64,000 nucleotides of DNA from Streptomyces sp. NBC_00223. GTDB lineage: Bacteria > Actinomycetota > Actinomycetes > Streptomycetales > Streptomycetaceae. Below the pieces are notes generated by a model. It had not been told where the DNA came from. It worked only from the letters and a program-made list of their open reading frames with translations, and made no database searches. The stretch spans positions 1-64,000 of the forward strand of contig NZ_CP108109.1 of assembly GCF_036199905.1 (NCBI RefSeq). Direction: 5' to 3'. A program made the position numbers and the translations under genes. Shown here piece by piece: positions 1 through 17,669 of the stretch. The first letter of the stretch is position 1. Each line of letters starts with the position of its first letter.

Positions 1-357
1 GCCTTCGGCCCTGCGCGCGGGCTTCGCCCGCCGACTACCCGGCCTTCGGCCGGGGGCACCGCGGCGGCGCCGCGGTGCGTGGCCCGGCTGCGCCGGGCGT
101 GATCGGGCTGCGCCCGATCGGTGGGGGCGAGTGTGGGGTGTTCGGTAGATGGTGGCTCACTTCTCCTGCGGAGCAGGAGAAGTGAGCGTGAGTCGAGGAG
201 GTGTGGGCCTGCGGCCCTGACGGTGGGTTGGCTGGGGCCGGGCTTCGCCCGATGAGATGGCGGTGGGTGGGCGCTTCGCGATCTCGGGCGGGTGGTGCTG
301 GATGGTCCTGTCGCGAGTTCACTCGTTCGGGTGGCCCGGGGGCGGGCTTCGCCCGCC
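1..357. repeat. Telomere-like array of short palindromes at the left end
   Basis: At least eight GC-rich hairpins stand nearly head to tail. Stems (loops): 17-22/26-31 (TTC), 38-44/48-54 (TTC), 56-65/69-78 (GGC), 82-88/92-98 (TGC), 101-108/112-119 (TGC), 156-169/173-186 (GGA, 14-bp perfect stem), 205-209/213-217 (TGC), 239-243/247-251 (TTC) and 341-347/351-357 (TTC). The first bases (1-9) look like one more, cut short. Read on the minus strand, whose 3' end lies here, most loops are GAA or GCA. That is the hairpin type known from the 3' overhang of Streptomyces telomeres. The sequence is not the archetypal telomere as I know it. There is no convincing gene before 499. The nearby tap-tpg pair supports the call. 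Confidence 0.75.
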
Positions 358-498
358 CTCCTGATTCAAAGACGCAATCCCGCTAAACTCTGTGGTGTTA
401 GGGAGGCTCCGGGGAGGGCTCAAGATCGCGGACTCGATCAGTGTCGTGATCCACTTCCTGTCGTTCCTCGCTCGTTCCGGAAAGAGGAGGCATCCGTC

Positions 499-2964
499 AT
501 GGCGAGGAAGCTGCGGCCGAACCAGGAGGAGGCGTGCGGGGCATCGGTCCGGCTCCTGACGCTGCCCGCGTCGGGGGCGGTGCCGCCGGAGGGGCTTCGG
601 TGTCAGATCAGGGCCGCGACGGGGGCGGGCAAGTCGCTGACGGCTGTTCACGTCGCCTCCCGCCTCCACGCGGAGCGGGCACTGGTGCTGGTCCCCTCGT
701 TACCGCTGCTAGAGCAGTCGGTCGGGGTGTGGCAGCGGGAGAGGCGCGGCTGGCGGATGTTCGGGCTCTGCTCGTTGAGGGCCGGCGAGCAGCCGGGGAT
801 CAAGTGCACCACGGATCCTGCGGAGCTGGTGAAGTGGACCGCCGGGCCGGGGCTGGTGACGGTGTTCGCCACGTACGCGAGTGTGGGGCTGGGGCACCTG
901 GAGGGGGCCCACCGGGCCGGGTTGCCAGCGTGGTCGCTGGCGGTGGTGGACGAGGCGCACCGGGTGTCCGGGCAGGCAGGGCGGCCGTGGGCGGCGATCT
1001 TGGACAATGCCCGGATCCCGTGTGACCGGCGGTTGTTCATGACGGCGACGCCAAGGCTGTGGGCGGTGAAGGAGGACGATCGGGAGCGGGCCGCCGCGGT
1101 GGGGATCGAGGCGGCGGAGCTGATCGCAAGTATGGACGACGAGGCGCTGTTCGGGCCCGTCGCGCACGACTACCCGCTCGGGAGGGCGATCTCGGACGGG
1201 GTGATCGCCCCGTACCGCATCCTGTGCGTCGACGTCGCAGACCCAGTGCTGCAGGGCCTGGAGCAGCGCGGTGCGAGTGACCGGTCGGTGGAGTACCGGG
1301 GGGCTCGGCTGGCCGCGTTGCAGACGGCGCTGCTGACGGCGTGTACGGAGTGGGACCTGTCGCGGGTGCTGTCGTTCCACCACATGGTGGCGGAGGCGCG
1401 GGCGCTGAGCACCGGTCTGCGAGAGGTGGCGCGGGTGCTGTGGGAGCGGGATCCGGCGCTGCACCCGCGGCCGGAGCTGGTCGGCACGAGCTGGCTGGAG
1501 GCCGAGCACACCCCGGCGGAGCGACGGGCCGCGCTGGGCACGTTCTCCTCGCTGGTCGGCGAGGACGGGTGGCAGCTGCTGCGGTACATCCTGTCGTCGG
1601 TGAAAGTGCTCTCCGAGGGGGTGGACACCTTCGACTGCGACAGCGTGTTCTTCGCGGACGTGCGCGGGTCGATGGTCGACTTGGTCCAGGCCGTCGGGCG
1701 CGCTCTGCGGATGCACCCGGGCAGCGGGAAGGTAGCCACCATCGTAGTGCCCGTGCTGCTGGGGGCCGACGAGGACGGCGAGCAGCTGCTCACCTCGAAG
1801 GCGTACGACGGGCTAGCGAAGGTTCTGATGGCGCTGCGGTCGCACGACGCAGCCTCCGTCGAACGCCTGGCGCTGCCGCAGTCCGAGGCCCGGCCCCCGC
1901 AGGAGTCGCGGCACGCGGGGGCTCCGGAGGAGTTCAGCTCCGCCGGTGGCGAGGCGCAGCTGCTGCAGTTCTCCAGCCGACGCGACCCGGCGGTCATCGC
2001 GGCGTTCGTGCGGACCCGGGTGCTGGAGCCCGAGCGGGAGGAGTTCCGGCGCGGTCTGGAGGAGCTGCTCGCCTACCGGGAGAAGTTCGGCGACGTGAAG
2101 GTGCCCTACGCCTACCGGGCGACCTCGGGGCACCGGGTCGGGGCGTGGGTGGCCGACCAGCGCCGCTACAAGGCCGCCGGGGTCCTGGACGCCGAGCGAA
2201 TCGCCCTGCTGGACGAGCTCGGCATGGTCTGGTCCGCGTTCGATACCGCCTTCACCGACAACCTGACCGCGGTCGCCGGCTACGCCGCCGAGCACGGACA
2301 TGCTTGCCCGCCTGCCGACGCCGTGTGGGGCGGGCGCCCGGTCGGCGTCATCATGAAGAACCTGCGCACCGCCCAGCGCCGCACCGAGGCCCTGGAGCGC
2401 CGCGCCGCGGCCGGCGAACAGGGCCTGGACTGGACCGGGGCACTGGCCGCCGACCGCAAGGCCGCCTACGACGCCATCGACCCCGCCTGGTGCCCCACCG
2501 GATGGTCGGTGGACTGGCAGCGCAGCTTCACCCTCGCCTGGCGCCACGCGAAGGTCGGCGGGACCCTCGCCGGCACCGAGCCCGACGGCGTCGTCGTCCA
2601 GGGCGAGGACCTCGCCGGATGGGCCCGCACGCAGCAGATCGGCTGGGACAAGCTCGGCCCCGCCCAGCAGTGGGCCTTGGAGCACGTCCTCGGCCTGGCG
2701 CCGCTGACCGCCGAGCAGCGGCCGGCCCCAAAGGTGACCCACGCGGAGAAGGAGCAGCGGAACCTGGCGGCCGCCGCGCAGTACCGGGAGCGCGAAGGGC
2801 ACCTCACCGTCCCGCGCAAGCACAAGGAGCCGTTGGAGCTGGCCGACGGCACCACCATCGAGATCGGCCTCGGCATGTTCATCGCCAACAGCCGCAGCAG
2901 GCGCGCCGACATCCCGGCCGCCCGCGCCGAGCGCCTCGCCGAACTCGGCATGCGCTGGGAGTAG
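499..2964 (+). CDS. DEAD/DEAH-box helicase with C-terminal helicase-associated (HA) domains
   Basis: Superfamily 2 helicase, 821 aa. Walker A is AATGAGKS (residues 39-46), motif II is DEAH (151-154), motif III is TAT (182-184). A helicase-C core follows with the VQAVGRALR motif. Past residue about 510 there are HA-type repeats, each ending in a LDELGM or LAELGM turn, a family usually taken to bind nucleic acid. I chose ATG 499 because AGAGGAGG (483-490) is an excellent ribosome binding site 8 bases upstream. The open frame reaches back to 292, but that stretch overlaps the palindromes and is not protein-like. Helicase-like genes commonly sit just inside Streptomyces telomeres, and the position here matches. 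Its role in end replication is inference. Confidence 0.9.
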   Translation: MARKLRPNQEEACGASVRLLTLPASGAVPPEGLRCQIRAATGAGKSLTAVHVASRLHAERALVLVPSLPLLEQSVGVWQRERRGWRMFGLCSLRAGEQPGIKCTTDPAELVKWTAGPGLVTVFATYASVGLGHLEGAHRAGLPAWSLAVVDEAHRVSGQAGRPWAAILDNARIPCDRRLFMTATPRLWAVKEDDRERAAAVGIEAAELIASMDDEALFGPVAHDYPLGRAISDGVIAPYRILCVDVADPVLQGLEQRGASDRSVEYRGARLAALQTALLTACTEWDLSRVLSFHHMVAEARALSTGLREVARVLWERDPALHPRPELVGTSWLEAEHTPAERRAALGTFSSLVGEDGWQLLRYILSSVKVLSEGVDTFDCDSVFFADVRGSMVDLVQAVGRALRMHPGSGKVATIVVPVLLGADEDGEQLLTSKAYDGLAKVLMALRSHDAASVERLALPQSEARPPQESRHAGAPEEFSSAGGEAQLLQFSSRRDPAVIAAFVRTRVLEPEREEFRRGLEELLAYREKFGDVKVPYAYRATSGHRVGAWVADQRRYKAAGVLDAERIALLDELGMVWSAFDTAFTDNLTAVAGYAAEHGHACPPADAVWGGRPVGVIMKNLRTAQRRTEALERRAAAGEQGLDWTGALAADRKAAYDAIDPAWCPTGWSVDWQRSFTLAWRHAKVGGTLAGTEPDGVVVQGEDLAGWARTQQIGWDKLGPAQQWALEHVLGLAPLTAEQRPAPKVTHAEKEQRNLAAAAQYREREGHLTVPRKHKEPLELADGTTIEIGLGMFIANSRSRRADIPAARAERLAELGMRWE

Positions 2965-3194
2965 GCGTGTGCCGGAGACGGGCCGGTGGCGGGTACCGAT
3001 CTGTCGCGCCCCAACAACGCGCAGGGTGGGCGAGCACGGTCTCGTTGGCCGCCATCGCGTGCGCCGGAGCGCCCGTACCCCGCGTTGTGGAGCCGTGTCG
3101 GAGCGAGGCAGGCCGAGGACGTGCCCGGCCGTAGTGCACGGGTCGTCTCACCACGTTGCGCACAACGGAGTCGGCCGGTCGAGCTGAGGGGGGT

Positions 3195-3492
3195 TAGACT
3201 GGCAGGTGCCGGTGCGTCGAGTGTCGGCCGCGTACCGCTCCGGTTATACGGAACTGCACCTCGCAGGGTTGGACCTGCGAGGTGAAGAGCGGCTAGCGCC
3301 TTCGGGACCGACCAGTGGCTCGCCTAGTTTCGTGGAACGCCGGTCGGCATGGTGACGTACCGGACCGTGAGCCGGTGGGGAGCTGTGACGACGCCCGCCG
3401 CCCTTTGGACGGCGCGCAGTGGAGTCTCTGGCCCGATGCCGGGGATGGCAGGTTCAGCCTGCGGCGCGCCAGTCCCCAAAGGGCGTTTTTTC
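3195..3492 (+). promoter_or_regulatory. Structured leader RNA that can sequester the ribosome binding site of the next gene
   Basis: A possible -10 box (TAGACT, 3195-3200; the -35 is poor) precedes a leader of about 285 bases. It contains a perfect 10-bp hairpin (3258-3267/3274-3283). A long-range helix follows: CCCTTTGG (3401-3408) pairs with CCAAAGGG (3476-3483), and GGCGCGC (3411-3417) with GCGCGCC (3464-3470). Two small hairpins lie inside (CCCG/CGGG near 3433 and GCAGG/CCTGC near 3450-3463). The helix is followed by CG and six T (3486-3491), then the ATG at 3493. The only ribosome-binding-like bases, AAAGGG, are in the outer strand of the helix. The element could therefore act as a translational switch, a terminator/attenuator, or both. 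I cannot assign a known riboswitch class. Confidence 0.5.
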
Positions 3493-5610
3493 ATGAGTAT
3501 CGACGCGTTCGAGAACGACAGTCTTCCCCCGCTGCTGCGGCGCCCCGACGAGGTGCCGGACCCGGCGCCGGTCACGCAGTTGCGCGGCTTCCGCAAGACC
3601 CTGCTCGACAACCCGGTGAACTCGCTGGACGAGGACGCGGCCACCGTGGTCACCGGCGGTGCCGTGGACCCCGTGCTGCTGCGCAAGCTGGTCGAGGCGG
3701 CCGGGGAGACCGCCGACGCCGGCCTGCTGATGGCCAAGCCGGTCGTCGGCGGCACCCTGTACGCCATCCCGCCGCACCGGCGGTTCACCGACCTGGACGT
3801 ACTGCCCGACTTCCTCAACCAGCGGTGGGTGCACAAGCTGCACACCGCGATGGACGACAAGCAGGAGAACAACGCCCCGGTCGTCTACAGGACCTTCATC
3901 GACGAGGCGACCGGGCAGCCGAGGGCGCTGTTCGTAGTGCGGGTGGCGGACCGTCAGGCCCTGGCCGACGCGGTCACCGAGAGCATGCGCCAGACGTACG
4001 GGGCCCAGGGCCAGCGAAACGTCTACACCGAGAGCGTGCTGCAGCACGGCATCAAGGAGCCGATGACGCTGTTCCTGGTCCGGGTCGTCTACGACGACGG
4101 CGTCGAGGAGACCTACACCGTCGCTGGCGACGGCAACAGCCGGCTCGTCAGCATGTGGCTGGCGCGCACTGGCGGCAACATCGACGAGGCGGCGGCGGCG
4201 TGCGTCGCCGCCGTGATCGGCCCGGTGGACCGCTCCGGCCCGCGCCGGCCGGCCGACCAGCGCTCGGCCCGCGCAAAGGTGACCGAGATGGCCGCCCGCG
4301 TACGCCGCGGCCTGGCCGAGAAGGTCCTCACCGAGGCGACCCGCCGCGAGGGCCACACCCTGACCTTCCCGGCCATCGTGGTGGTCGGCGCCGTCACGGA
4401 GGACGGCACCCCGCTGCCCGACCTGGTCGCCGCCCGCGACGACCTGGTGGCCAACCTGCACGTCCACGTCACCCCGTGGGACGAAGGCGCGCAGTACACC
4501 CAGGGCATGCAGCGCGTCTACCGGCACGCCCTGCGCGAGCACTTGGTCGACGCCGACACGTACAAGGTGCTGCTCGGCGAGGTCAGCCCGGCCACGATGC
4601 ACAAGCTCCTCGGCCTGCCGCCGCACCGCCTGTGGTCGGTGGCCCTGCACCAGCAGGGCATGCTCGCCGGTCAGGCTGAGAGGATGAACCGGCTCCTCAA
4701 GCAGGAGTTCGGCATCGGCAGGGCCGACCGCCAGAAGGTGAGCGAGCGGATCGCGTCGATGGCGCTGTCCGCCTACCGCAGCTCCCCGGCCATCGACCAG
4801 TACGCCCGCGCCCTCGGCAACGGCGGCACCATCACCGACACGGTGTGGAAGCGGAACTGGACGCTGACCCGCGGCACCGACGCCCTGAAGGTCCTCGACG
4901 GCATCCTCGAGCGGGCGCTGCTGGACGAGACCAACGCGGTGGCCGAGCTGACCGTGCTCGGCGGCACCGCCGCGATCGTCTCCGGCTTCATCACCCGTGA
5001 CCGCGGCTCCAAGCTCGCCGCGGCCCGTGAGGTGCGCACCGCGCCGCTGCGGCACACCCCCAACGCCCTGCTGGCGTTGCTGGCCGGCACCCAGGGCGGG
5101 CTGCGGATGCTCCACTCCATCGCCTACGCGCACGTCGCGGCCGACCCCAGCATCCTGCCCAAGCAGTTCCACACCGCCGCGCGGGAGATCGACGGTGCGG
5201 TGATGCGGGATGGCGAGCCGGTCGTCGACAAGGCCGGCGCGGTGGTCTCCATCGACTACGAGTGGGACCTGGTCTACGCCGCCAGCCCGGTGGAGGCCGA
5301 GGCGTCGATCGCCGAGCTCAAGAAGAAGCTCGACGGCAAGACCGGGAGCGGCAGCACTACGGAGACCGAGGACGCACGGCAGCGCCGGATCCTGCAGAAC
5401 TCGATCAAGGCCGCCAGCCGGGCCGCGTTCACGCTCGCCAAGATGACCCAGACCCACGCCCGTGGCCGTGAGGTGTTCGGCCTCGTCACCAGTGTGGACG
5501 CCCTGCGGGTTCAGTTGGGCAGCATCACCGAGACTCTCATCAAGTTCGGCCCCGTGGCCAACGTGATGCCGGACCCGGAGGACGAGTACGAGGACGGTGA
5601 CGGCGCGTGA
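3493..5610 (+). CDS. Large protein with a ParB/Srx-like domain, function unknown
   Basis: 705 aa from ATG 3493; the open frame begins at 3349 but that part is the structured leader. Residues 179-217 follow the ParB N-terminal pattern: an ES-x-x-x-HGI-x-x-P segment (180-190), then a Y-x-V-x-G strand and DGNSR (213-217), where ParB has GERR and DndB-type proteins have DGQHR. The rest is mostly helical, with a charged C-terminal tail (EDEYEDGD). I recognise no catalytic motif with confidence. The gene lies between the terminal helicase and tap-tpg, and its stop overlaps the GTG of the next gene (GTGA at 5607-5610). A DNA-binding, partition-like or defence role are all possible; none is shown. 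Confidence 0.75.
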   Translation: MSIDAFENDSLPPLLRRPDEVPDPAPVTQLRGFRKTLLDNPVNSLDEDAATVVTGGAVDPVLLRKLVEAAGETADAGLLMAKPVVGGTLYAIPPHRRFTDLDVLPDFLNQRWVHKLHTAMDDKQENNAPVVYRTFIDEATGQPRALFVVRVADRQALADAVTESMRQTYGAQGQRNVYTESVLQHGIKEPMTLFLVRVVYDDGVEETYTVAGDGNSRLVSMWLARTGGNIDEAAAACVAAVIGPVDRSGPRRPADQRSARAKVTEMAARVRRGLAEKVLTEATRREGHTLTFPAIVVVGAVTEDGTPLPDLVAARDDLVANLHVHVTPWDEGAQYTQGMQRVYRHALREHLVDADTYKVLLGEVSPATMHKLLGLPPHRLWSVALHQQGMLAGQAERMNRLLKQEFGIGRADRQKVSERIASMALSAYRSSPAIDQYARALGNGGTITDTVWKRNWTLTRGTDALKVLDGILERALLDETNAVAELTVLGGTAAIVSGFITRDRGSKLAAAREVRTAPLRHTPNALLALLAGTQGGLRMLHSIAYAHVAADPSILPKQFHTAAREIDGAVMRDGEPVVDKAGAVVSIDYEWDLVYAASPVEAEASIAELKKKLDGKTGSGSTTETEDARQRRILQNSIKAASRAAFTLAKMTQTHARGREVFGLVTSVDALRVQLGSITETLIKFGPVANVMPDPEDEYEDGDGA

Positions 5611-6095
5611 CCTCGGTAACGATCCCCCGTCAGATCCGTCGGCGGCTCGCCCCCGCCGTCCGCACCCTGGCGCCGCTCCTGGACACCGGTGCCCTCGCCC
5701 GCGCCGACGACCCGGCCTCCGGCCTTGGCCTGCCGGGCGACCGTCGAGGCCGCCCGGAGCGAGATCACCGTGCCGCGCGCGGTGTACGTGGCCTGGGATG
5801 CCCGGGGCTGGTGCCGCTACATCGGCAGCGTGAACCGCCGACAAGCAACCGCGGTCGGCGACCGGCTCGCCGAACACCACCAGCACCCGCGGCACGGGCC
5901 GGCCCGCCGCCGCGACTGGGTGCTGCTGACCGTCCTGCCGATCCGGGCGGACGCGCCGCACGGGGCCGTCCTCGCCGCCGAGGGATGGGCGGCGCGACTG
6001 CTCGTCTCGCTCGACGGCGGCGCGCACCCGGTGATCGATCTGATGCTCCCGCCCGACGCGATAGCCGCGCGATCCCCACCCCGCACGGCCCCTGA
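5607..6095 (+). pseudogene. GIY-YIG-like protein gene with an internal frameshift
   Basis: GTG 5607 overlaps the upstream stop, suggesting coupled translation. The first 40 or so codons have good GC3. Coding signal then moves to the +1 frame near 5710-5750. From about 5722 to 6070 that frame reads like a GIY-YIG domain: AVYVAWDARG, then CRYIGSV, RLAEHH with the usual R and H, and AAEGWAARL with a candidate catalytic Glu. The shifted frame has possible starts at ATG 5689 and GTG 5770 and stays open to 6543, but composition stops looking coding near 6070-6130. Either the gene is broken, there is a one-base sequence error, or the short start at 5770 is used. The nuclease assignment is motif-based and tentative. 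Confidence 0.45.
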
Positions 6096-6131
6096 GCCTG
6101 GTACCGGGCGCGGGCGGGTGGGTGGTCGTGA

Positions 6132-6428
6132 CTACGACCACCCACCCGTCGGCTCTCCGGTCAGCCGCCCGACGGCGAGGCGTAGCGGGGTGAGGCATCG
6201 GCCGGGTGCTCGGAGACCAGCAGTTCCTCGCTGCTCGGCGCGCAGGATGCCGTCCCGGGCCCAGCGGCAGGGTTGCTGCGGCAGGACGGCGGCGAGACGG
6301 CCCCCGGGGTCAGCCGGTACGGCAACGAGTGCGACCACCCGCCGCGGGACGCCGCTGTTCGCCAGGACGACGGGTGAGGTGGCGCCGGCGGCGCGGAGTT
6401 CGTGGTCCCACAGGGCTCTCACCGCCAA
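6132..6428 (-). CDS. Small protein of unknown function downstream of tpg
   Basis: 98 aa from TTG 6428 (or GTG 6422). The protein-like core is a hydrophobic segment rich in Val and Ala (VVALVAVPADPGG) followed by an Arg-rich half. It follows tpg on the same strand by 38 bases and could be the last gene of the tap-tpg operon. No family is recognised and the ribosome binding site is weak. It converges on the GIY-YIG-like gene. Confidence 0.35.
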   Translation of the reverse strand: MAVRALWDHELRAAGATSPVVLANSGVPRRVVALVAVPADPGGRLAAVLPQQPCRWARDGILRAEQRGTAGLRAPGRCLTPLRLAVGRLTGEPTGGWS

Positions 6429-6466
6429 TCAGGCTTTCCTGCAAGGAGGCTGTGTGCTGATCCGGG

Positions 6467-7015
6467 TCAGGTCAGGTCGAAGTCGTTGGGGTCGAAGTCG
6501 AAGTCGTCCGGGCCGAAGCCGCCGTAGCCGGGGCCGCCGTTGAAGTATTCCGCGAGGGCCTGGCCGACGATCTGTCGCACCTCGCCCTCGTTCTCGGCGA
6601 GGGCCAGGGCGGCGGCCTGCTCGCCCGTCAGGTTCAGGTGGATGTCGCGGGCGCGGACCGCGTCCGAGCCGCGGATCTCGAAGGTCATGGTGCGGCCGAC
6701 CCGGGCCCCGATCCCGGAGACGGTGCCGCGCTGGGCCAGTTGCTTGGCCTTGCGCTCCCGGCCGCGCTCGGTGGTCTGCACGTCGACCGCCTCGCGCTGC
6801 AGTCGCTCGGCGGCTTCTCCCTTGGGGTGGCGGGTGCCGTCGATCCAGCGGAGCACGGTGCGCGGGGCGACGCCGTAGGCGGCGGCCATGGCCTTGGTGT
6901 TCCCGCTATACTTGCGCTCCCGCACCTGGCCGGCCTGCGTGGTGGACTGCACCGGCGCCTTCCTGGAGGGGAACAGCGCCTCGCGCACCCGGCCGAACAG
7001 CCCCTTGGCCGCCAT
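6467..7015 (-). CDS. tpg: Telomere terminal protein Tpg
   Basis: 182 aa, the usual length of Streptomyces Tpg (about 184-185 aa). Tpg becomes covalently attached to the 5' ends of linear replicons, primes end patching and protects the ends. Features seen: a basic N-terminus, a helix-turn-helix-like segment (YGVAPRTVLRWIDG, about residues 47-60), a charged ERGRERKAKQL stretch, a GARVGRTMTFEI segment, and a tail with a QALAEYF motif and a repeated Asp-Phe acidic end. The start ATG shares one base with the tap stop (TGATG at 7013-7017), so the two genes are translationally coupled. Assignment rests on length, motif order and the tap neighbour. The sequence looks divergent from the archetypal protein. 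Confidence 0.85.
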   Translation of the reverse strand: MAAKGLFGRVREALFPSRKAPVQSTTQAGQVRERKYSGNTKAMAAAYGVAPRTVLRWIDGTRHPKGEAAERLQREAVDVQTTERGRERKAKQLAQRGTVSGIGARVGRTMTFEIRGSDAVRARDIHLNLTGEQAAALALAENEGEVRQIVGQALAEYFNGGPGYGGFGPDDFDFDPNDFDLT

Positions 7016-9483
7016 CAGTTGCCGCCTTCCTCGTCGTCGTTGTCGGTCTGCTCCGGGGCGATCGGGGTGCCGTCAGTGGTGTAGTGGTGGACCAGCTTGG
7101 AGGGGTGCTCCCGGCGCTCCATCGCCTCGACCACGGCCTCCAGGGGGATCGAGGCTTCGTGCTTGTGGCTGCCCGGGGCGATGCCCAGGCGCAGTGCGCC
7201 GGGGACCGGGGTGCCGTCGTCCTTGACCGGGAGCAGCTCCAGCGGGGACGGGGCGGCGGCGGCGTACAGGTAGCTGTCCACGTTGACCGCGAAGGGGGCC
7301 CGGCCGGTGAGCAGCAGGGTCTTGCGCAGGCGGCGGTGGGCGGCGATGCGGGCGGCGGCGATGACCTGGAAGCGCAGCGCGGGGTCGTAGGACCAGGAGG
7401 CGGCGACCTTCTCCAGCCACACCTGGTCGTCCAGGTGGCGGGCGGAGTCGGCCCACTTGCCGATCCCGCCCTTGTAGACGTTCTTGTAGGTCTCCGCGAG
7501 GACCAGGGCGTCCGCGCGGACCGGGTCGGTGCCGACGTCCCTGTGGACGGCGTAGGCGGCCAGGAACTCCTCCGGGCTCTGGCCGTCGAACAGACCCAGC
7601 TCGGCGTAGGTCCGCTTGTAGCCGCCCCTGATCCGGCCGGTCCACTCTTTGAGCAGCGGTGCGGTGTGGGCGGCCAGGTAGGCGGCGGTGATGGTGGCCT
7701 GGTCGAAGCCGTAGGTGGTGGCCATGTAGGCGACCGTGACGGTGGCGTACCAGCCGGGCCCGGTCGGCGGCTGGCCGTGGAAGGTGGCCGGGTGCGGCAG
7801 CAGGGAGTCAACCTCGGTGCCGGTGAAGTCGCACCACCACAGGCCGGCGGTCTTGCCGTCCCAGGCCGGGTGCTCCACGTACGCGTACGGGCCGATGGGC
7901 AGGCGCAGGGAGTCGGTGACGGACAGGTAGCTCGCGCACACGTCGACTGCGACCGCGAACTGGCGGCCGGCCTCCTCGGTGGTGAGTTCGCGGGCCCACC
8001 ACTTGTAGTCCTCCTCTTCGCACACCGTCTCTCCCTTGGAGAGGAGTTCGCGGGTGAGCGGGTGGCGGGCCCCGGCGGCCGGCGGCACGCACAGGTCTCC
8101 CGAGGGCAGTGCGCCCTCGCGCATGTACGAGGACCACTCCCCCATCGCCTGGTCCTTGGTCCACTCCACGCGGGGGCGCACCGCGTCCAGGAGCAACATC
8201 GCGGTCGAGGCCGTGGTCGCGCCGGGGGCGACGCCGAGGTCGGTGGTGAAGGCCCGGTAGCGGCGAGCCAGGACAAGCCCGTCCCGGGTGCCGTCGGGGG
8301 CGGTGGCCAGCGGGGCGGCGAGGGAGCTGACGGCCTGCTGGCGGCCGTCGCCCTGGCCCAGCCACGGCGCGATGGTGACCCGCACCGAGGTCTTCGGGCC
8401 GCCGGCCGACCCGGCACGGCGGAAGGCGTGGAAGGACGGGCCGATCGCCTCGGAGATCTCCATGCCCACCGTGGCGGCGGCCTTGGCCAGCTTGGCCTGG
8501 AGCGCGGCCAGGGCCTTCTCCGTGCCGGGCAGCATGGCGGGCAGGCCGAGCTGCTTGAGCGCGGCGGCGGTCAGACAGACCATGCCGTCGCCACCGCGTC
8601 CGGCCGGGTGGGCGCGCTCGACGCGCAGCGGCAGCCCCGTTCCCAGCCACGCGAACCAGTCGCCCAGCTTCGGCCCGGCCGGAGCCGGGATCTGCGGGAC
8701 GTCCAGCACCCAGCCGCCGCCCTCGGCGACGTCCAGCGCGACCGCCGACCACCAGCGCGCAGCGGCAGCCGTGGCGGCCGGACGCGGCGCAGCCGGACGG
8801 GTAGCGGGACGGGACGTCGCCGGGCGCGGCCTGGCCGACGGGGCCGGGGAAGCGGTGGGCGCGGGCCGCACCGGCGACGAGGAAACAGGAGCAGGAGCAG
8901 CGGGCGCGGCCGGGGCGGCGACGGGCGCCAGGGCCACCGGGGCGGGCAGAGCCTGGCCCGCCGGAGCCGGGGCCGGCTGCTGGGCGGCCGGTGCGGCGGC
9001 CTGGGGCGCCTGGGCGGCGGGGCGGCAGAACCCGCCCAGGTGCATCGGGCGGCCCTGCGCGCGATAGACGGAGGGCTGGCAGCACTGCACGCACGGCGCC
9101 GACTCGCCCATCACCAGCGAGCCGTCCGGGTTCTGGTCGAGCAGCGGAACCACTAGGCCGTCACCCGTGTCCTGGGCGGGCGCCGGGGCGGTGAACGCCT
9201 GCGGCACGACCGAGACCGGAGCGGTGGGCTGTTCAGGCGCAGGGAAGCGCTCCGCCAGGCCCGCGAGCAGCCGCGCGTAGGCCGGGGCGATGTCCGGGCC
9301 CGGAACGGCTGATCCGTCCTCCCAGCCCAACACCAGGGCCGAGTCCACCCGCAGAACCGCGGCGATCTGCGTAGGCGTCAGCCCAGCCGCCAGGCGCAGC
9401 CGCTGCCGCTCCGCCGGAAGCGGCAGGCCGGTGTTCACGGCCGCCAGCAGAGCGTCGACGGAGTTGAACAGGTCATCCGACAT
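7015..9483 (-). CDS. tap: Telomere-associated protein Tap
   Basis: 822 aa, longer than the roughly 740 aa of known Tap. Tap binds single-stranded telomere hairpins and recruits Tpg. The start ATG 9483 gives the family's N-terminus: residues 20-80 form an XRE-like helix-turn-helix (AAGLTPTQIAAVLRVD, then LGWEDG). Residues 131-153 hold Cys residues (CVQCC, then C) that could bind zinc. An Ala-Pro linker of about 90 residues accounts for the extra length. A large globular C-terminal half follows, with DEEDYKWW-type and KRTYAELGLFDGQ segments. Fourteen bases separate it from the upstream gene, and it overlaps tpg. The longer open frame to 10623 is not supported. Confidence 0.85.
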   Translation of the reverse strand: MSDDLFNSVDALLAAVNTGLPLPAERQRLRLAAGLTPTQIAAVLRVDSALVLGWEDGSAVPGPDIAPAYARLLAGLAERFPAPEQPTAPVSVVPQAFTAPAPAQDTGDGLVVPLLDQNPDGSLVMGESAPCVQCCQPSVYRAQGRPMHLGGFCRPAAQAPQAAAPAAQQPAPAPAGQALPAPVALAPVAAPAAPAAPAPVSSSPVRPAPTASPAPSARPRPATSRPATRPAAPRPAATAAAARWWSAVALDVAEGGGWVLDVPQIPAPAGPKLGDWFAWLGTGLPLRVERAHPAGRGGDGMVCLTAAALKQLGLPAMLPGTEKALAALQAKLAKAAATVGMEISEAIGPSFHAFRRAGSAGGPKTSVRVTIAPWLGQGDGRQQAVSSLAAPLATAPDGTRDGLVLARRYRAFTTDLGVAPGATTASTAMLLLDAVRPRVEWTKDQAMGEWSSYMREGALPSGDLCVPPAAGARHPLTRELLSKGETVCEEEDYKWWARELTTEEAGRQFAVAVDVCASYLSVTDSLRLPIGPYAYVEHPAWDGKTAGLWWCDFTGTEVDSLLPHPATFHGQPPTGPGWYATVTVAYMATTYGFDQATITAAYLAAHTAPLLKEWTGRIRGGYKRTYAELGLFDGQSPEEFLAAYAVHRDVGTDPVRADALVLAETYKNVYKGGIGKWADSARHLDDQVWLEKVAASWSYDPALRFQVIAAARIAAHRRLRKTLLLTGRAPFAVNVDSYLYAAAAPSPLELLPVKDDGTPVPGALRLGIAPGSHKHEASIPLEAVVEAMERREHPSKLVHHYTTDGTPIAPEQTDNDDEEGGN

Positions 9484-9497
9484 CAGGGCCGGTCTCC

Positions 9498-10133
9498 TCA
9501 GCGTCCGTTGGGTCGGGTCGGGTCGATCCGCGGGTCGCCGAACAGGGCGTCGAAGACCCGCTCGGTGAGGCAGGCGATCGGGCCCTGCTCGGGGCGCAGC
9601 GTGTAGCCGGCGGTGCGCCCGAGATCGGCCACCGCGATCGGGACCTGGCGGCGGTAGTAGAACTCGAGCTCGCGGCCGGCGAACTCCGTGGGCTCGACCA
9701 CGCCCTGCGCGGGGTTGAACGGCAGGGTGAACGAGGGCAGGCCGGCCACGTCCTCCTCGGCGGCCAGGTGCAGCACGCCGTCGTCGGTGGTGCGGAACGC
9801 CACGGCCAGGTCCACGCCGCCGGCTCGGCGGTCGCGCGGGAGCCCGTGGCCCTCCAGGACACGGCCCAGCTGCGAGGGAGCCATGGCGGCCGCGATGCCC
9901 AGGGCGCGCCGGTTGGAGTAGCTGTCGCTGGCGTCCGCGCGGGACATGGCCAGCTCCTTGACCACGTTCAGGTGCTGGGTGACGCGGCTGATGCAGGCGA
10001 CCAGGGCGGTCAGGTCGTCGAAGGCGGAGGCCTGCGGCGGCTCGACCAGCCGCTCGCCGCGCAGGGCCGCGAGCAGCGCCTGGGCGAGGTCGTCGTGCAC
10101 CTCGACCCGCTCGCCGCCGATGCTGATTCTCAC
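9498..10133 (-). CDS. First gene of the tap-tpg operon, function unknown
   Basis: 211 aa from GTG 10133, with GGGAG about 8-12 bases upstream and a good promoter beyond. The N-terminal 100 residues are probably helical and charged. A SNRRALGIAAAMAPSQLGRVL segment could be a helix-turn-helix-like unit. The C-terminal half reads as beta-rich (VLHLAAEEDVAGLPSFTLPF, then ELEFYYRRQVP). No known family is recognised. It sits 14 bases before tap, so it is almost certainly co-transcribed with the telomere genes and may assist end maintenance. That role is inferred from position only. Confidence 0.7.
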   Translation of the reverse strand: MRISIGGERVEVHDDLAQALLAALRGERLVEPPQASAFDDLTALVACISRVTQHLNVVKELAMSRADASDSYSNRRALGIAAAMAPSQLGRVLEGHGLPRDRRAGGVDLAVAFRTTDDGVLHLAAEEDVAGLPSFTLPFNPAQGVVEPTEFAGRELEFYYRRQVPIAVADLGRTAGYTLRPEQGPIACLTERVFDALFGDPRIDPTRPNGR

Positions 10134-10165
10134 GAGACAACTCCCAAAAAGTAGAATTTAACCAA

Positions 10166-10194
10166 ATACTACGCCCGTCTGCTCTTGGAGTCAA
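10166..10194 (-). promoter_or_regulatory. Sigma-70-type promoter of the tap-tpg operon
   Basis: On the minus strand TTGACT (10194-10189) and TAGTAT (10171-10166) are separated by exactly 17 bases, close to the consensus for the principal sigma factor. It lies in the only AT-rich patch of the region, 33 bases before GTG 10133. Confidence 0.75.
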
Positions 10195-10489
10195 AGAGGA
10201 AAGGGCGCGCGGCACTGCTGTGCGCCGGTGCAACTGGCCAGGGGTCGGGGAGGGCAGGCGCGGCCGCCTCCGGCCAACGCGACGCGGGTGCACGCCACTC
10301 TGGCCTGACCGGGGGCTGGGAAGACGGTGCCAACCGGGCAGGGCAGCGGCGTAGGGTGTTCGCCACCACGGCGAGTTGGCCACCCGCCGGGGCGACCACA
10401 CCGTCGAGTCGCTGGCCGGCAAGGCCGCGCCCGACCGCTTCGTGGTCCTGCTCTTCTCCGCTCCCCTGTTCCCAGCGAGTGAGGCACCT

Positions 10490-11712
10490 TTGTCCAGCGG
10501 GCTTGTCCGCGCCACCTCGCCCAACCAACCGCCCAGCGCCCTGCCGAACGAGCTCGCCGACGAGCAGCTCACGCTGCTGCTGGAGATCGCCACGCCCTTC
10601 GTGCAGACCTGGGTCTGGCCCATCTGGGACTACGTGGTCAAGCGGATGGACGAGCGCGGGCTCGATGCCCGCAAGATCATGGCGTCCCTGCCCCGCGTCG
10701 GAAGCACCGGAACGCTCGGGCCGTCCTACGGCTTCACCGCCAAACACGACTGGCGCATGATCGGCGACGGCGACCCGGTCAGGCTCACGGTCGCGGCCGC
10801 CCTGCCGCTCGGCGAGCTGCGCCCTCTCCTCGCAGACCCGTTCCTGCGGGTGCTTCACCACATGATCGCCCTGCAACGAGCCGCAGTACCGTCGCCGACC
10901 GAGGTCACGCAGACCTGGCTGAACTCACCGGAGCTGGCCGAGGCCATCCCCAGCCTCAAGCCCGAGTTCATCGCCGCGCTCCCGCAGATCCTCGACGATG
11001 AGCCCAGCACCTGGGGGGGAAGCGGACGGGGCCCGAACCTGCCCGACGACCGGCGTGGGCCAAGGAGATCAAGCGCGAGATCCAGGAGTACGCGCAGGCG
11101 ACCGACGTGGAGGCATACGTCGCCACCGTCTGCCGGATCGTCACCGAACAGATGTGGGAGCAGAACTACCACCATTACCGCGCCGAGCAGGGTGTGCCGC
11201 TGCCCCGCGAGTATGCCGCGGCGCCCCGGCCCGGCCAGGCCGGGGAGGAAGCGGCGGAGCCCCCCGCCGCGCCGGAGACCTCCGGGTCGGTCTACGTCAA
11301 GGAGGCGCTGATCGAGGAGCTGGTCGAGCTCGACGGCGCCGGCCGCTTCTTCACCGACAAGCTGGTCCGGCAGTGCAGGGAGCTGAACTTCAACTACCAG
11401 CACGAGCAACCGTTCTCGTGTCACGCACTGCTGCGCGCCATCATCGACCACGTTCCGCCGGTCTTCGGCGTGGCCGGGTTCGCCCAGGTCGCCAGCAACG
11501 TCACGGGGCGGACCAAGACCGACAAGGACTACCTCAAGAAGCTCCAGGACTTCCGTACCCAGGGCGACGACGTGCTGCACCGGCAGATCGGCCCCCAGCG
11601 CAGCCGCATCGACATGCACGACGTCCCCGCCCCGGCAGCCCTGAACGCCCTGCTTGAAGGCCTCCTCAAGCACCTCCGGCAGGCCCGGGCCGCGGCCGCG
11701 GCCGGGAAGTAG
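10490..11712 (+). pseudogene. Unknown-family gene split by a frameshift in a G run
   Basis: The first part (TTG 10490, or TTG 10376) reads in frame to about 11018. Good coding sequence then continues two frames away (AWAKEIKREIQEYAQA onward) to the stop at 11712. The break coincides with six G at 11013-11018. A seventh G would restore one protein of about 408 aa. The C-terminal part has a helical ALLRAIIDHVPPVFG segment, then TKTDKDYLKKLQDFRTQG and DDVLHRQI, a layout reminiscent of helical domains in defence-type proteins, though I cannot name the family. It may be a pseudogene, a phase-variable gene or a sequencing error. It diverges from the tap operon. Confidence 0.6.
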
Positions 11713-11777
11713 CGCGCCGACCTGCCGGGCCTCGGACGGGCGGCCGGGCTGTGTACGGGCCCGGCCTCCCGGAGGCT

Positions 11778-12431
11778 TCACCGTGCGGCGCCCGTACCGT
11801 GGGGGTGCTCGTGCCGGGCGGTGCGGAGCAGGCGCAGCCACGCGCCCTGGTGAAGGCGCTCGGCGGGTCCAACGAGCATGGCGGGCCACGGGCACGGCCG
11901 GGATCCGGCGGGGGCCGGTACCCATAGACGCGGCCCGCATGCAGTCGCTGCGGGCGGTGCTGTCGGGCCTGGGCGGCGATGGCGGGCAGGTCCAGCGGAA
12001 CGGGCAGGGCGCGAGCTCGGCCCAGACGACCTTGCCGGTGCCGGTCGGGTGCTCCCCCGCTCTTCGGCCAGGGCCTCGACCATCAGCAGGCCGCGGCCGG
12101 TGACGGCCTGGTCGTCGCCGATGCCGGCCACGATCCGGGGCAGGGCGGCGCCCTGGTCCTCGACCTCGAACCGCACCCGGGCGCCGGCCGCGTCCAGGCG
12201 CAGCAGCGCGGTGAGCCGGGCCGGGCCCGCGTAGCGGGCGGCGTTGGCGAGCAGTACGGAGGCGACGGTCACCAGGTCGTCCAGTGCGGCGCCGTCCAGG
12301 CCCCAGCCGGTGGCGGCGCAGTGGACCAACCTGCGGGCGGGGCCGACGCAGGCCACGCGCCGGTGCGGGTCGGAGGCGGTCGCGGTGAGGGTCAGGCGGT
12401 ACAGCGGCCCGCGCCGAAGACGGTGCGGCAT
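11778..12431 (-). pseudogene. Frameshifted HATPase-type (anti-sigma-factor-like) gene
   Basis: From ATG 12431 the frame gives an RsbW-like ATPase fold of the kind common in Streptomyces. An N-box region (DLVTVASVLLANAARY) is followed by FEVEDQGAALPRIV and a G-box (GRGLLMVEALAEERG). Near 12065 the protein jumps to another frame (EHPTGTGKVVWAEL). Near 12015 it jumps again, to a frame with the normal C-terminus (LPVPLDLPAIAAQ). Two indels in 60 bases mean no complete protein is made from this sequence as given. The ends are approximate. Confidence 0.6.
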
Positions 12432-12635
12432 CGGGGCCCTCAGGGGTGGTGACGGCACGTCGGTCGGGTGGGCCACCGGTTCGGAGGCGACCGGCGGCGG
12501 CCCGCATCCGACCCAGCCGACCCGCGCCACAGGCGCAGTTCCAGTCCACCGCCCGCAGCCACGGGAGCGGTGCCACCCCGACCGCACGTTTCACCGGCCA
12601 CTTCAGCCCGGCCGCCCGCCCGGTGGCGCCAGGGT

Positions 12636-13310
12636 GTGACGACTCCTCAGACCGAGGAGAGCAGGCGGTGGGCACCAGCACGCCAGCCGGGTTGGGCAAA
12701 GCGGCCGGCTGCACCCAGGAGACCCTCGTCGTCGCGTTCGCCGCGCTGGCCACCGGCTCGGCATCCAGGCCGCGGTGAGCGTGCGTCAGCTGCGCCGCTG
12801 GGAGGCGCCCGACCCACCGCTGCCGCACCCAGGCCAGCAGGAGGTACTGGAGGCGCCGCTCGGGGTGCCGCTGGAGGAGCTCGGCTTCCAGATGCCCGCC
12901 GAGCGGCGCAGCACGCACCGGCCGGGCCGGCAGGTCGGCGCGGCGGACGTCGTGCTGCTGCACGCCGAAGTGGCCGGGCTGTACGCCATCGACCACACCG
13001 CCGGCGGGCGGGCCGCGCGCACCGCCCGCCCGCCGGGTCCTCGGCGAGCTGGAGCGGGCACTGACCAGCGGCAGCTACCTGGAGCGGGGGCCGGGCCCGC
13101 ACCGCGTGCTCGGAGGCGCTGGCCACCGCCCGCCTGGTCGGCGACCCGCTGCTGGAGATCCGCGCACTCGACAGCCTCTCCCTCCTCGCGGTCGGGCAGA
13201 AGCGCCCGTGGGAGACGGTCGCCGCGGCCAGCACGGTCGGCGCCCTCGCCCAGTCCCACGGCAGCCTCAAGGTGAAGTCCGTCGTCGCGCTGCGCCACAC
13301 CCCGCCCTGG
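12636..13310 (+). pseudogene. Broken XRE-type regulator remnant
   Basis: The pieces match the Streptomyces regulator family with an N-terminal XRE helix-turn-helix and a long repeat-rich C-terminus. Seen in order: an N-terminal MTTPQTEE-like start at GTG 12636, KAAGCTQETLVVAFAALA, SVRQLRRWEAPDPPLPHPGQ, EAPLGVPLEELGFQ, LGELERAL, then VGDPLLEIRALDSLSLLAVG and STVGALAQSHGSLK. The pieces lie in at least four reading-frame blocks (shifts near 12670, 12775, 13035 and 13130). The family sequence stops near 13310, well short of normal length. Its 3' end runs antisense into the open frame of the next gene. It is a decayed, truncated gene. Confidence 0.6.
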
Positions 13311-16300
13311 TCCCCCGAGCCTCACGTACACGAGCGGGTGCAGGTCTGTCCGTCTCAGGGTCTGGTATTCGGCGAGGGTGAGGCGGCAGGTGCTGGGCGG
13401 GGTGGTGCCGGGCCAGTCCGGTGAGTCGATGCCTCGGGCGCGGGCGGCCTGCCACATGGTGGGGACCAGGGCGTGGGTGTGGGCGGGGGTGGCCATCTGT
13501 TCGCACATCCACAGCAGTCGGCCGGCCCCACGGGAAGGACCGAGGGTGCGCCAGCGGATGCGCTGGGCGAGGTCGGCGGCGGTGATGGCGATCCAGGGGT
13601 GGACGGTGGCGAGGGGGCCTTGGGCGCCGAGCCAGGCGAGGTAGCGCTGTGCGTCGTCGAGGACGGGGGCCATGGAGTCCGCCGGGATGCCGCGGATGTA
13701 TGCGGGCCGGCCGCGGAAGGCGCGGGGTGCGCGGGCGACGAGGAGCAGGACGGCGCGGGCGAGGTCGCCGGCGACCGGCTGCCAGTCCTCCTCCTCGTCC
13801 TGGTCCGCGTCTGTGGTGGCCTGGCCGGGTTGGCCGAGGGTGCGCAGGACGTTGTAGAGCTCGGCTTTGGCGCGGTCGGTGAACGGCGCTTGTTCGAGCG
13901 CGGGCAGGCGGGTGGCGAGGGTGGCGATGAGGGCGTCTTCCGCGGTGTCCGGGTTGTCGGGGACGGGGAGGTGGGCGGTGGCGTCGGCGAGGGTGGAGGC
14001 GAGGTCGGCGTCGACCATGAAGCGGCTGGTGAGGCGGCCGAGTTCGGTGGCTTCGATGCGGTCGTCGCCGCCGTCGGGGTCGGGGGTGCGGGTGAGGTAG
14101 GCGGTGTCGGTGAGGAAGTCGGTGGCGTCGTGGAGGGGGTCGAGGGGGTGGTGGCCTTGGTGGAAGGCGAGGGTGCTCTTCCACCAGTTCTCGGCCTGGG
14201 TGGTGGTGGCGAGGCGGTTCTGGACGGCTTCGGCGAGGAGGTGGTCGGGCAGGCGGTCGCGGATGCGGGAGGTGACGGTGTATCCGGCGGCGAGGCGTGC
14301 CTGCCAGTGGTGGCGTTCGCTGGGGGCGGTGAGCAGGTAGGCGTGGCCTTCGCGTTCGCCGGCGCCGATGCGGCCTGCACGGCCGAACATCTGCTGGACC
14401 ATGGACACTTCGATACGGCTCATGCCGATCTGGGTGTCGCGGACGATGACGGCACGGGCGGGCAGGTTGACGCCGGCGGCCACGGTGGAGGTGGCGACGA
14501 GGATGTCGGCCTGACGGGTACGGAAGGCCTGTTCGGCTTCGCGCTTGTGAGGCCAGTCGCGGTAGTGCAGGCGCACGCCGGCCTTGGTGCACAGGCGCTC
14601 CACGAGATCGCTGTCGTCCGCGTCGGCGCCGGTGGTGTCGACGCCGCGGTCATGGGCCAGGGCGAGGGCAGTGGTACGGACCGAGCGTTTGCTGCCGCAG
14701 AACACCAGGACACTGCCGCCGCCGGCGGTGTGGTGGCGCGCGAGGTCGACGGTGCGGCGGGTGCGGGTGTTGTTGCGGGTCGCCCAGTCGGCTGCGTCGG
14801 CGTCCGGTGGCATGGCCGGCAGCTGCCAGGTCAGGCGGGTCGGGCGCCAGGGCGAGCGGATGAGACGGGCGCCGAGCCATCCGGCGAGTTGGTCGGCGTT
14901 GGCGACGGTCGCGGACAGGCCCACGATCCGTACCCGGGTGGCGTCCTCGCGGACCCGGGCCAGGAGCGCCTCCAGGACCGGGCCCCGGACGGGGTCGCCG
15001 AGCAGGTGGATCTCGTCCACGACCAGGCAGCCGACTTCGGCGAGCGCGGCGCGTAGGGAGCCGGCGCGGCAGATCGCCTCGAACTTCTCGGTGGTGGCGA
15101 CCCACAGATCGGCTTCGCGGATGAGGTCGGTGTCGACGGCGGCTTCGCCGGTCAGGCGGACCACCCGCAGCCCGGCGCGGCGCCAGGCGGCGAGGTCGCG
15201 GTCGAGTTCGTCGGTGAGGGAGCGCTGGGGAACGAGCCAGGCGGCTTTGCGGCCGCGTTGGTGAGCGGTGAGGGCGGCGACCATGCCGATCGCGGTCTTC
15301 CCGGCTCCGGTCGGGGCAACGACCATGGCGTGCTCGTCGCCGTCGGTGACGGCGGGGATGGCGGCGGCCTGGACCGGGTTGAACGCCGGGTGCGGCAGCA
15401 GCGCCTTCCACACCTCGGGGACGAGGTCCTCGACGGGCACGAACGCCTCGGTGTCGCCGGCGGGGAGCTCGTCCAGGGCGTCCCACTGGGCGGCGAACGC
15501 GTCCCGGGCCGCGTATGCGGCGGGCCCTGCGGCCGGCGTCGCCACGCCGCCGGGCCAGGCGGCCAGCTCGACGGGCGCGCCGAGGTCGGACACCGTGGTG
15601 ACCACCTCGTCCTCCACCCAGTGCGCGGCGGTGCGCACCTGGGCGCCGAGACCAGCGAGAGCGTCGCGCAGGGTGTCGAAGCGCTCCCCCGCCGGGATGA
15701 TGACCCTCAGGTCGGTGGCGGCGCGCAGTGCGGGCTCGGGCACGTTCCAGGCGGGGTCGGTGATCTTGCCCCACCACAGAGCCCGCGTCTCCTTCTGGGC
15801 CGGCAGGGGCAGGTCTTCGGGCCACGCCGGGCCCACGGGGGCGGTGGTGGGTGCGGGTTCGCGGGAGGGGTGGGGCAGGCGGATCGCCGTGACGCTCACG
15901 CCGGGCCCGCTCGGACACGGGCCCGTGTCGGGTCCGGCCACCAGCCGTGCCGCGGCGCGGGCGGTCACCGCAGGAGCGGCCTTTGTACGCTGCGGTCCGG
16001 GGGCGGCGGCCGCCGCAGGCGTGGCCGGGGTAGTGGGGCGCAGGAGCCTGTCGTAGGTCTTCACGCCGAGGTCGGCGAGCGTGAACGCAGCCGGGCAGGC
16101 GGGGCAGACGACGGCGACGTACCGGTACTTGCGCCCTGCGGACTCGTACGGGCGGCGAAGCGAGTGCAGTACGCCGTCGCACTGCGGGCACGGGCGGGGC
16201 ACCTGCTCCTGGTAGGTCCAGCCCGGCTCGGTGAACCGCTGCTGCAGCCCTGCGGCCGGCAGGTCGCTCCCCCACCTGTCACGGACGAGCTGCTCGACCG

Positions 16301-16343: not shown

Positions 16344-16663
16344 TGTGGCAGCCGGGTAGCCGCCCGTACCAGAGGCACTCGGACAGTGTCGCGGCCCCGT
16401 GCCGGTGGCGCCGTCAGCGGCAGGGGCCGAACCTTCGTGCTCAGCGCCGATTTGGCCGCCTTCGCTGCCGGGCGGGATGCGGCCGGCGCGATTCAAGGCC
16501 GTGGTGCTCTCCCGCTGGTGTTCCGGCGGGCCGCCGAGGGCCTGGGAGCCCTTGTTGTTCACCGGTGTGAGAGTTGGAACCGCACTGGGGTTGAGATCGC
16601 GGACGCGGCCCGCTCAACGTGGCGCGGAAAAGTACTGCTGGGCTACGTCACGGCTGGGGTTGC

Positions 16664-17161: not shown

Positions 17162-17212
17162 GCCCCCAGCATCGGGTAGGCGGGGTGGCGCGGGGGACTG
17201 TGTCAGGGTCAT

Positions 17213-17612: not shown

Positions 17613-17669
17613 TGAGACGCCCTGAAACGATCAGCTGGTCTGAGAGGGCACGAATGGAGTCTCACCCGT

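Follow-up and report, generated by a model that had tools for sequence, protein, structure and literature searches.

The window, i.e. the whole stretch of 64,000 nucleotides that was analysed (bases 1-64000), is the left end of a single linear contig of 7,961,474 bp (7.96 Mb). Its outermost part comprises the following features.

1-17663, unstranded: terminal inverted repeat of 17.65 kb, by which the whole set is doubled at the other chromosome end
1-190, unstranded: inner telomere, supported by sequence, DNA fold, homologous closed ends and compensatory pair changes
1-412, unstranded: telomere-proximal non-coding region, with approximately 70% identity to Kitasatospora linear-plasmid ends and to contig ends
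499-2964, plus strand (inward): TtrA-like HA-domain DEAD/SF2 helicase, assigned by domains and position
3493-5610, plus strand: 705-aa protein with no family match, between the helicase and the operon and outside the conserved module
5689-6543: open reading frame previously called GIY-YIG-like, with a short YIG-like string only
6467-7015, minus strand: tpg, divergent terminal protein with a helix-turn-helix (HTH) and the candidate priming residue Ser117 in an invariant GSDAxR block
7015-9483, minus strand: tap, divergent telomere-associated protein
9498-10133, minus strand: unknown gene, the first of the operon, conserved upstream of tap

As proposed in the preliminary description, the last three genes form an operon on the minus strand (9498-10133, 7015-9483 and 6467-7015), with a 14-nt gap before tap and a 1-nt overlap between tap and tpg. 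Tap appears as a clear homologue that lies outside the NCBIfam telomere_Tap equivalog NF047542 (E 1.6e-111, 374 bits versus a cut-off of 600), and it is approximately 33% identical to archetypal Tap. The protein gave an HTH_31 domain match, and it exhibits an HTH at residues 28-73, a C2HC zinc ribbon at 131-153, an Ala/Pro linker at about 155-241 and a conserved C-terminal region at 242-800, in which D514, K667, K671-K676, D736 and K774 are conserved. The unusual length ascribed to Tap is real (822 aa versus 725 aa for the archetypal Tap of the same genome), but it is not due to the linker alone, as had been thought, since the zinc ribbon also contributes. The AF2 model of the C-terminal region, built with seven close sequences, reached a pLDDT of 33, and scanning viral contigs with Tap revealed no relatives.

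Tpg, a protein of 182 aa with a pI of 9.6 and weak HTH matches, is indeed divergent, scoring 42.8 bits against a cut-off of 90 on NCBIfam telomere_Tpg NF047541 (E 5.4e-11) and being approximately 34% identical to archetypal Tpg. The acidic tail that had been taken as a mark of this divergence is ordinary, as acidic aromatic tails (...DIDYIELDF, ...HVEFEL) are found in nearly all archetypal Tpgs too. In a MAFFT alignment, Ser117 falls on the archetypal S113, and a shift by one residue aligns the S-D pair with T114-D115; in Tpg, serine can stand for Thr114, while Asp115 is required (PMC3572947). The locus exhibits the broad features of Tap/Tpg end-patching, namely overlapping tap and tpg genes, an HTH in both proteins and a basic Tpg of about 185 aa. 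This Tpg is present in only 3 of 35 members of the host's genus.

With regard to the other genes, the HA-domain helicase reported next to the telomere is confirmed, with three HA domains (PF03457, 5.9e-32) and DEAD/ResIII/Helicase_C domains encoded at 499-2964. Helicases 80-84% identical to it lie at the ends of CP108406, CP108405, CB01950 and CBMA156, and in this genome the only copies are the two in the terminal repeats. The product of 3493-5610 had been called ParB-like; no ParB or Srx match was obtained for it in Pfam, NCBIfam, PHROGs or PADLOC, and its gene was found on 2 of 72,556 plasmid records, neither of which carries the divergent Tap clade. Strong structure was found in its leader (z -4.7), which matches no Rfam family, and an Rfam search of bases 1-16000 of the window gave nothing above chance-level matches. 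The GIY-YIG label of 5689-6543 finds no support in the domain search, and this open reading frame also lies outside the module. The first gene of the operon, which had no family match and an AF2 model with a pLDDT of 47, is found upstream of tap in seven related loci with 74-97% identity. What recurs is not a module of six proteins, but the telomere with tap-tpg, together with the upstream gene in Kitasatospora, which is a different genus of the host's family; the HA helicase is present at several such ends.

Bases 12-17663 of the window recur inverted at the right chromosome end with 99.98% identity, and the divergent tap-tpg pair is present in two intact copies, one per terminal repeat, beside the cognate telomere at both ends. 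The left end is incomplete in the assembly: related closed ends extend 46 nt beyond base 1 of the window, a segment that comprises palindromes I and II, and the right end is 11 nt shorter still. The physical end of the chromosome was thus inferred from that of its relatives, palindromes I and II being absent from the window. Within the inner telomere, palindromes with 3-nt loops are located at 1-9, 17-31, 38-54, 56-78, 82-98 and 101-119, and a long palindrome at 155-187. The terminal 190 nt fold with a z of -6.9 relative to dinucleotide shuffles (0/200 shuffles as good), and the palindromes exhibit compensatory pair changes across 17 ends. Bases 1-412 match the end of CP108406 (E 2e-29) as well as contig ends of CB01950 and CBMA156. 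Complete ends, observed at both termini of G194:C2 and from base 1 of G201:C63, whose palindrome I shows a compensatory change, start with CCCRGC-TAC-GCYGGG-TAACC and differ from archetypal ends; the full ends of the relatives read CCCRGCTACGCYGGGTAACC.

A search for the telomere that was blind to Tap, conducted on 72,556 plasmid records with a threshold of E < 1e-8, yielded seven convincing records, every match being at the record terminus. Conversely, a search for Tap that was blind to the telomere retrieved 396 records, of which only nine belong to this clade (>60% identity), including all seven that bear the telomere. The hypergeometric p of this overlap is approximately 1e-13 under independence of the records, which are not independent. 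As for the two remaining plasmids of the clade, the end of CP117710 looks unrelated and that of CP108665 merely resembles this telomere. When genomes were searched with Tap residues 257-822, the clade was found in all six that have a contig-terminal telomere match (G105, G188, G194, G052, G093 and G201), on the same contig as the telomere in four of them. In CB01950 and CBMA156, draft contigs stop at the telomere or close to it, and the order of helicase, tpg, tap and upstream gene is preserved on them. In the Tap tree, the Taps associated with the new telomere (10/10) all fall inside one clade of 17 with a support of 1.0, from which the archetypal Tap of this genome and two Taps from archetypal-telomere chromosomes are separated. 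In G090, the Taps are mid-contig in an assembly with head-to-head terminal repeats and no telomere of this class, an observation that is neutral.

The proposal that a divergent telomere lies beside a matching divergent tap-tpg pair is thus borne out by co-occurrence on the same replicons and by a separate Tap clade; neither homologues scattered at internal positions nor grouping with archetypal-telomere strains was observed. The telomere and its replication proteins seem to travel between replicons as a matched set. Calling the set co-evolved goes beyond these data, because co-inheritance by linkage would yield the same pattern, and calling it replicon-specific requires care, because the same set is found on chromosomes and plasmids in at least three genera.

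This chromosome also carries, at 224 kb, an intact archetypal tap-tpg pair, the Tap of which scores 1114 bits, and a search of the genome for the archetypal telomere motif gave no match. Chromosomes of the same genus (G025-G028 and G030) have archetypal-like ends together with archetypal Tap. The retention of the archetypal pair without a detectable archetypal telomere indicates that a linear plasmid was probably the source of the present chromosome ends, a direction of transfer suggested by genome comparison and for which plasmid-driven replacement of chromosome ends offers a precedent (PMC7205883).

Based on these observations, we consider it likely that the locus performs protein-primed end-patching of the Tap/Tpg kind, with a distinct telomere class and its own Tap/Tpg clade, plasmid-borne and installed at both ends. 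After replication from an internal origin, both ends are left with a 3' overhang, as is established for the family. Folding and compensatory changes predict that this overhang forms a row of hairpins with 3-nt loops, of which CCCRGC-TAC-GCYGGG lies outermost. Tap would bind these hairpins through its HTH and the zinc ribbon of this clade, and would then recruit Tpg. The first dCMP would be added onto Ser117 of Tpg, palindrome I would be copied by Tap and the gap would be filled by the host polymerase; the priming step is proposed from the biochemistry of the S. lividans system, from the conservation of the S-D pair and from the C with which the end starts. Tap and Tpg are sufficient for priming (PMC4513846). 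If the telomere depends on its own Tap/Tpg, telomere and operon would move as a unit, and a recombination event involving a linear plasmid could have swapped out the archetypal ends, leaving the archetypal tap-tpg 224 kb inside.

The co-occurrence may instead reflect linkage rather than specificity of Tap/Tpg for this telomere: telomere and tap-tpg, lying within 10 kb of each other, would be co-inherited, and the ends could be served by whichever Tap/Tpg is present, the archetypal one at 224 kb among them. Tap and Tpg work in trans, with cross-talk among replicons reported (PMC8743542), and this genome and several others carry both kinds of Tap. We nevertheless regard this explanation as unlikely, as the operon lies about 47-115 kb from the end on CP109056, CP108096, CP109045 and CP109047, yet is present on 7/7 telomere-bearing records, and as Tap is no substitute for Tac on the SCP1 telomere in vitro (PMC4513846).

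That the telomere belongs to an already published non-archetypal class is quite unlikely. The best candidate is pRL2, for which a helicase similarity was noted and which encodes Tap-like and Tpg-like proteins (PMC8743542). The Sg13350, Sg2247 and pRL1 genomes were reported to have no Tap similarity (PMC8743542), whereas the Tap described here is clearly similar. SCP1 ends have a dGMP start and Tac/Tpc, whereas the complete ends of the relatives begin with CCC and the proteins are Tap/Tpg homologues. The archetypal arrangement, in which TACCACA.. palindromes come after palindrome I (CCCGCGGAGCGGG), is also absent from the full ends of the relatives. The telomere type is apparently undescribed, the comparison with the Sg13350, Sg2247, pRL1 and pRL2 classes covering their published descriptions. 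Finally, although both tap-tpg pairs are intact in this genome, it is very improbable that maintenance of the chromosome depends on the archetypal pair and that the terminal set is a functionless remnant of a recently integrated plasmid, given two intact divergent pairs in 99.98% identical repeats, each beside its cognate telomere, and no detected archetypal telomere.

Taps of both this clade and the archetypal one might, tentatively, be highly degenerate protein-primed family-B DNA polymerases, with Tpg as a detached primer protein. Synthesis of 13 nt has been reported for Tap in spite of its lack of a polymerase motif (PMC4513846). The suggestion comes from a weak profile alignment with three catalytic motifs in register: hhalign aligns D514, K667 and D736 of Tap, in this order, with D249, K383 and D458, catalytic residues of phi29 polymerase (record EU771092), with P from 0.004 (13 Taps) to 0.11 (34-50 Taps) and block-shuffle controls of 2/48, 2/48, 3/160 and 18/160. 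Motif A would be D514 (DV[NC]xx[FY]), motif B K667-x3-KGGIGK and motif C D736, with only one Asp; together with the [VI]I[AS]xAR segment between motifs B and C and with K774, they would correspond in order and spacing to the palm and fingers of phi29 polymerase. Searches with 34 Taps gave no significant match to polymerase profiles in Pfam or PHROGs, and no PDB profile match. Among 952 ORFs, a motif expression written post hoc picked out Taps and phage PolBs and nothing else, a result that is circular for the Taps. The protein primer is shared with phi29-type polymerases and the motif order may be, whereas Tap lacks the first Asp of motif C and no exonuclease motifs were seen. If correct, this would explain how Tap polymerises without a recognisable motif, would connect the ends of actinobacterial chromosomes with the protein-primed replication of phages and would name the catalytic residues of end-patching.

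The locus apparently adds a further telomere class with candidate priming proteins, which several published classes (Sg2247, pRL1) lack. It also amounts to a natural experiment, in which both kinds of Tap/Tpg but a single kind of telomere are present on one chromosome and own-telomere recognition can be tested.

Compared with the archetypal S. coelicolor/S. lividans set, the tap-tpg order, the HTH-linker-conserved region layout of Tap, the features of Tpg (182-185 aa, basic, HTH, candidate Ser/Thr-Asp priming block, tail) and those of the telomere (packed palindromes, 3-nt loops, CCC start) are shared. In contrast, both proteins fall under the NCBIfam cut-offs at the identities given above, Tap has a zinc ribbon, Tpg has Ser for Thr, an extra gene lies upstream, palindrome I is CCCRGCTACGCYGGG and the later palindromes are unrelated in sequence. 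SCP1 likewise has dedicated telomere-associated and terminal proteins for a non-archetypal telomere, but Tac/Tpc were reported without sequence homology to Tap, and the SCP1 ends start with a dGMP run. The helicase is, like TtrA of linear replicons, encoded by the first gene from the end and is an inward DEAD-type helicase, the likeness being in position and domains only. A further parallel is with the type I/II Tap-Tpg sets (Tidjani et al. 2020, PMC7205883), which also combine a non-archetypal telomere with a divergent tap-tpg pair, with chromosome ends inferred to have been replaced from a linear plasmid, and for which co-transfer of telomere and proteins was already proposed in a Streptomyces population. 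Their Taps and Tpgs are, however, 48-61% identical to the archetypal ones, and their palindromes have CTTG or GCA/GGA loops, other sequences and another host genus.

The window corresponds to C1:1-64000 of a genome consisting of one contig of 7,961,474 bp, which belongs to a genus of the Streptomycetaceae. As an inverted copy of 12-17663 is present at the opposite chromosome end (99.98% identity), the helicase, tap and tpg occur in two copies, one per end. The genes concerned are the following.

499-2964, + strand, HA-domain helicase
3493-5610, + strand, 705-aa gene
6467-7015, - strand, tpg
7015-9483, - strand, tap
9498-10133, - strand, 211-aa gene

Compared with complete relatives, ~46 nt are missing from the outer end of the window and ~57 from the right chromosome end. 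A large helicase-like ORF (13200-16562) is 94% conserved in the draft genome CB01950, where it adjoins the same end, so synteny extends past the tap-tpg operon.

Positions 1-190 are predicted to form a run of hairpins whose loops are 3 nt long (z -6.9 relative to 200 dinucleotide shuffles). A 33-nt palindrome at 155-187, GCTCACTTCTCCTGC-GGA-GCAGGAGAAGTGAGC, exceeds its neighbours in length. The linear plasmid CP108406 has homologous ends at each terminus, and CP108405 has one at its left end; in CB01950 (contig end at window base 1) and the draft genome CBMA156 (corresponding to window base 38), they coincide with or lie close to contig ends. Complete ends, found on either side of G194:C2 (72,183 bp) and at base 1 of G201:C63, read CCC[G/A]GC-TAC-GC[C/T]GGG-TAA(A)CC..., with a GAA-looped second palindrome; a complete 200-nt end exhibits nine predicted hairpins (z -6.4). 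In an alignment of 17 ends, changes on both sides preserve the hairpins at 10 of 23 predicted pairs, and palindrome I is preserved in G201 by a compensatory A/T swap. The top-strand loop of palindrome I is GTA in G188 (L112, the end of G188:C160), versus TAC in G194 (L091/L111), and G188 has an additional TTA outside this palindrome. The G188 hairpin appears to be inverted relative to that of G194, through either a hairpin flip or an assembly fold-back.

The co-occurrence of this telomere with its tap-tpg pair, proposed in the preliminary description, was observed on plasmids and in genomes. Plasmids were searched for Tap (tblastn) and for the telomere (blastn), each search being blind to the other. 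The first gave 396 records, nine above 60% identity and the others below it (37.5% or less among the matches listed); the second gave seven records with E <1e-8, all at termini and all among these nine. As for the remaining two, the end of CP108665 is only reminiscent of the telomere and that of CP117710 is not telomere-like. Of 395 genomes of the family, six (G105, G188, G194, G052, G093, and G201) have the telomere motif no more than ~0.5 kb from a contig end, and the Tap clade (65-90% identity) is present in all of these, on the same contig in four. The G105 copy has ~500 nt outside it, perhaps an assembly join. Internal matches with two mismatches are chance-like, because a reversed-pattern control gave similar numbers.

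The expected separation of Taps by telomere type was also recovered: a divergent clade (support 1.0) includes every Tap with a window-type telomere, and the opposite side of the tree holds the archetypal Tap of the window genome and the Taps of archetypal-telomere chromosomes. As a sequence pattern, this co-occurrence would fit conserved linkage as well as recognition specificity. In the chromosome record of G090 (L171, G090:C1:4734500-4754400), near-identical inverted repeats lie head to head mid-contig, flanked on both sides by divergent and broken archetypal Tap copies, which looks like joined linear ends.

A Tpg match was found in 32 of the 35 genomes of the window's genus, nearly all archetypal-like. 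The divergent Tpg is limited there to G034, G020, and the window genome (G000), and is common in genus g14, which includes Kitasatospora paracochleata. G000 retains an intact archetypal pair (L024, 223723-226425), 224 kb from the left end.

223723-224175, archetypal Tpg
224293-226425, archetypal Tap (1114 bits)

This pair sits in a chromosome whose ends have another telomere class. No archetypal telomere motif was found in G000 with a strict pattern, one that likewise fails to detect ends of clearly archetypal-like appearance, for example those of G026. The simplest account is that a linear-plasmid end module replaced the archetypal ends of the G000 chromosome.

The window Tap (822 aa) comprises the following regions.

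28-73, HTH_31
131-153, C-x2-C-x13-H-x4-C zinc ribbon
to ~241, Ala/Pro linker
beyond, conserved C-terminal region

The zinc ribbon (C2HC) is not exclusive to the divergent clade, as it is present in one archetypal-side Tap, that of NBC_01266 (L046, CP108459, Kitasatospora), which suggests domain exchange between Tap clades. Tpg (182 aa, pI 9.6) exhibits an invariant GSDAxR block, and its S117-D118 fall on T114-D115 of S. lividans Tpg after a one-residue alignment shift. The latter were defined by experiment, serine being tolerated and an acidic neighbour required (PMC3572947). The acidic aromatic Tpg tail, noted in the preliminary description, is common to archetypal Tpgs. The 211-aa gene upstream of tap had no match in the libraries searched; it is 74-97% conserved in Kitasatospora-type loci, and CP108405 and the examined Streptomyces member (L044) either lack it or have something else in its place.

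Tap and Tpg alone make 13 nt in vitro, and no polymerase motif has been recognised (PMC4513846). Across 50 diverse Taps, D514, K667, K671-G673, G675-K676, D736, and K774 are invariant. Using hhalign, 13 Taps gave one alignment with eight protein-primed phage polymerases (P 0.0043), which superposes VDVCASY on FDVNSLY, K-NVY-KGGIGK on K-LML-NSLYGK, and VNVDSYLY on YCDTDSIHL, so that D514, K667, and D736 land on phi29 D249, K383, and D458. With more Taps the score was lower (P 0.11) and the default local alignment was reduced to motif A; a relaxed run still retraced the original path and also took in a [VI]xxxAR segment and, beyond motif C, a K/H-E site. Block-shuffle controls reached the real score in 2/48, 2/48, 3/160, and 18/160 cases, and Pfam, PHROGs, and PDB profiles gave no match supporting a polymerase. 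The single motif-C Asp of Tap is not disqualifying, since primer-independent PolBs also have one (PMC7544198); that survey makes no mention of Streptomyces or telomeres. That Tap may catalyse like a protein-primed, phi29-type phage polymerase is a testable suggestion drawn from these alignments.

The helicase recurs beside window-type telomeres, with 80-84% identity at CP108406, CP108405, CB01950, and CBMA156. The 705-aa gene, described earlier as a ParB-like member of the module, is not retained as such: just two plasmid records have homologues of it, and the Tap clade is present in neither. It has a long structured leader (2965-3492, fold z -4.7), with a hairpin and a T-run immediately before the ATG. 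The linear plasmid pNL15-2K-Lin encodes a 61%-identical homologue (L170:1750-4391) 2.3 kb from its end, also with a leader of ~545 nt; a 42-nt block near the start codon, GGACGGCGCGCAGTGG..., is 81% identical between the two leaders.

The archetypal end, CCCGCGGAGCGGGTACCACA..., which is continued by the ends of G026, G028, and G030, differs from the complete window-type ends (CCC[G/A]GC-TAC-...). The helicase near window-type telomeres matches the description of TtrA (PMC8743542). The principle of end replacement is not new, as the same sort of replacement, with a co-transfer argument, was reported in a Streptomyces population (PMC7205883). In contrast, the telomere class and the protein clade appear to be new, published non-archetypal telomeres being compared by description only.
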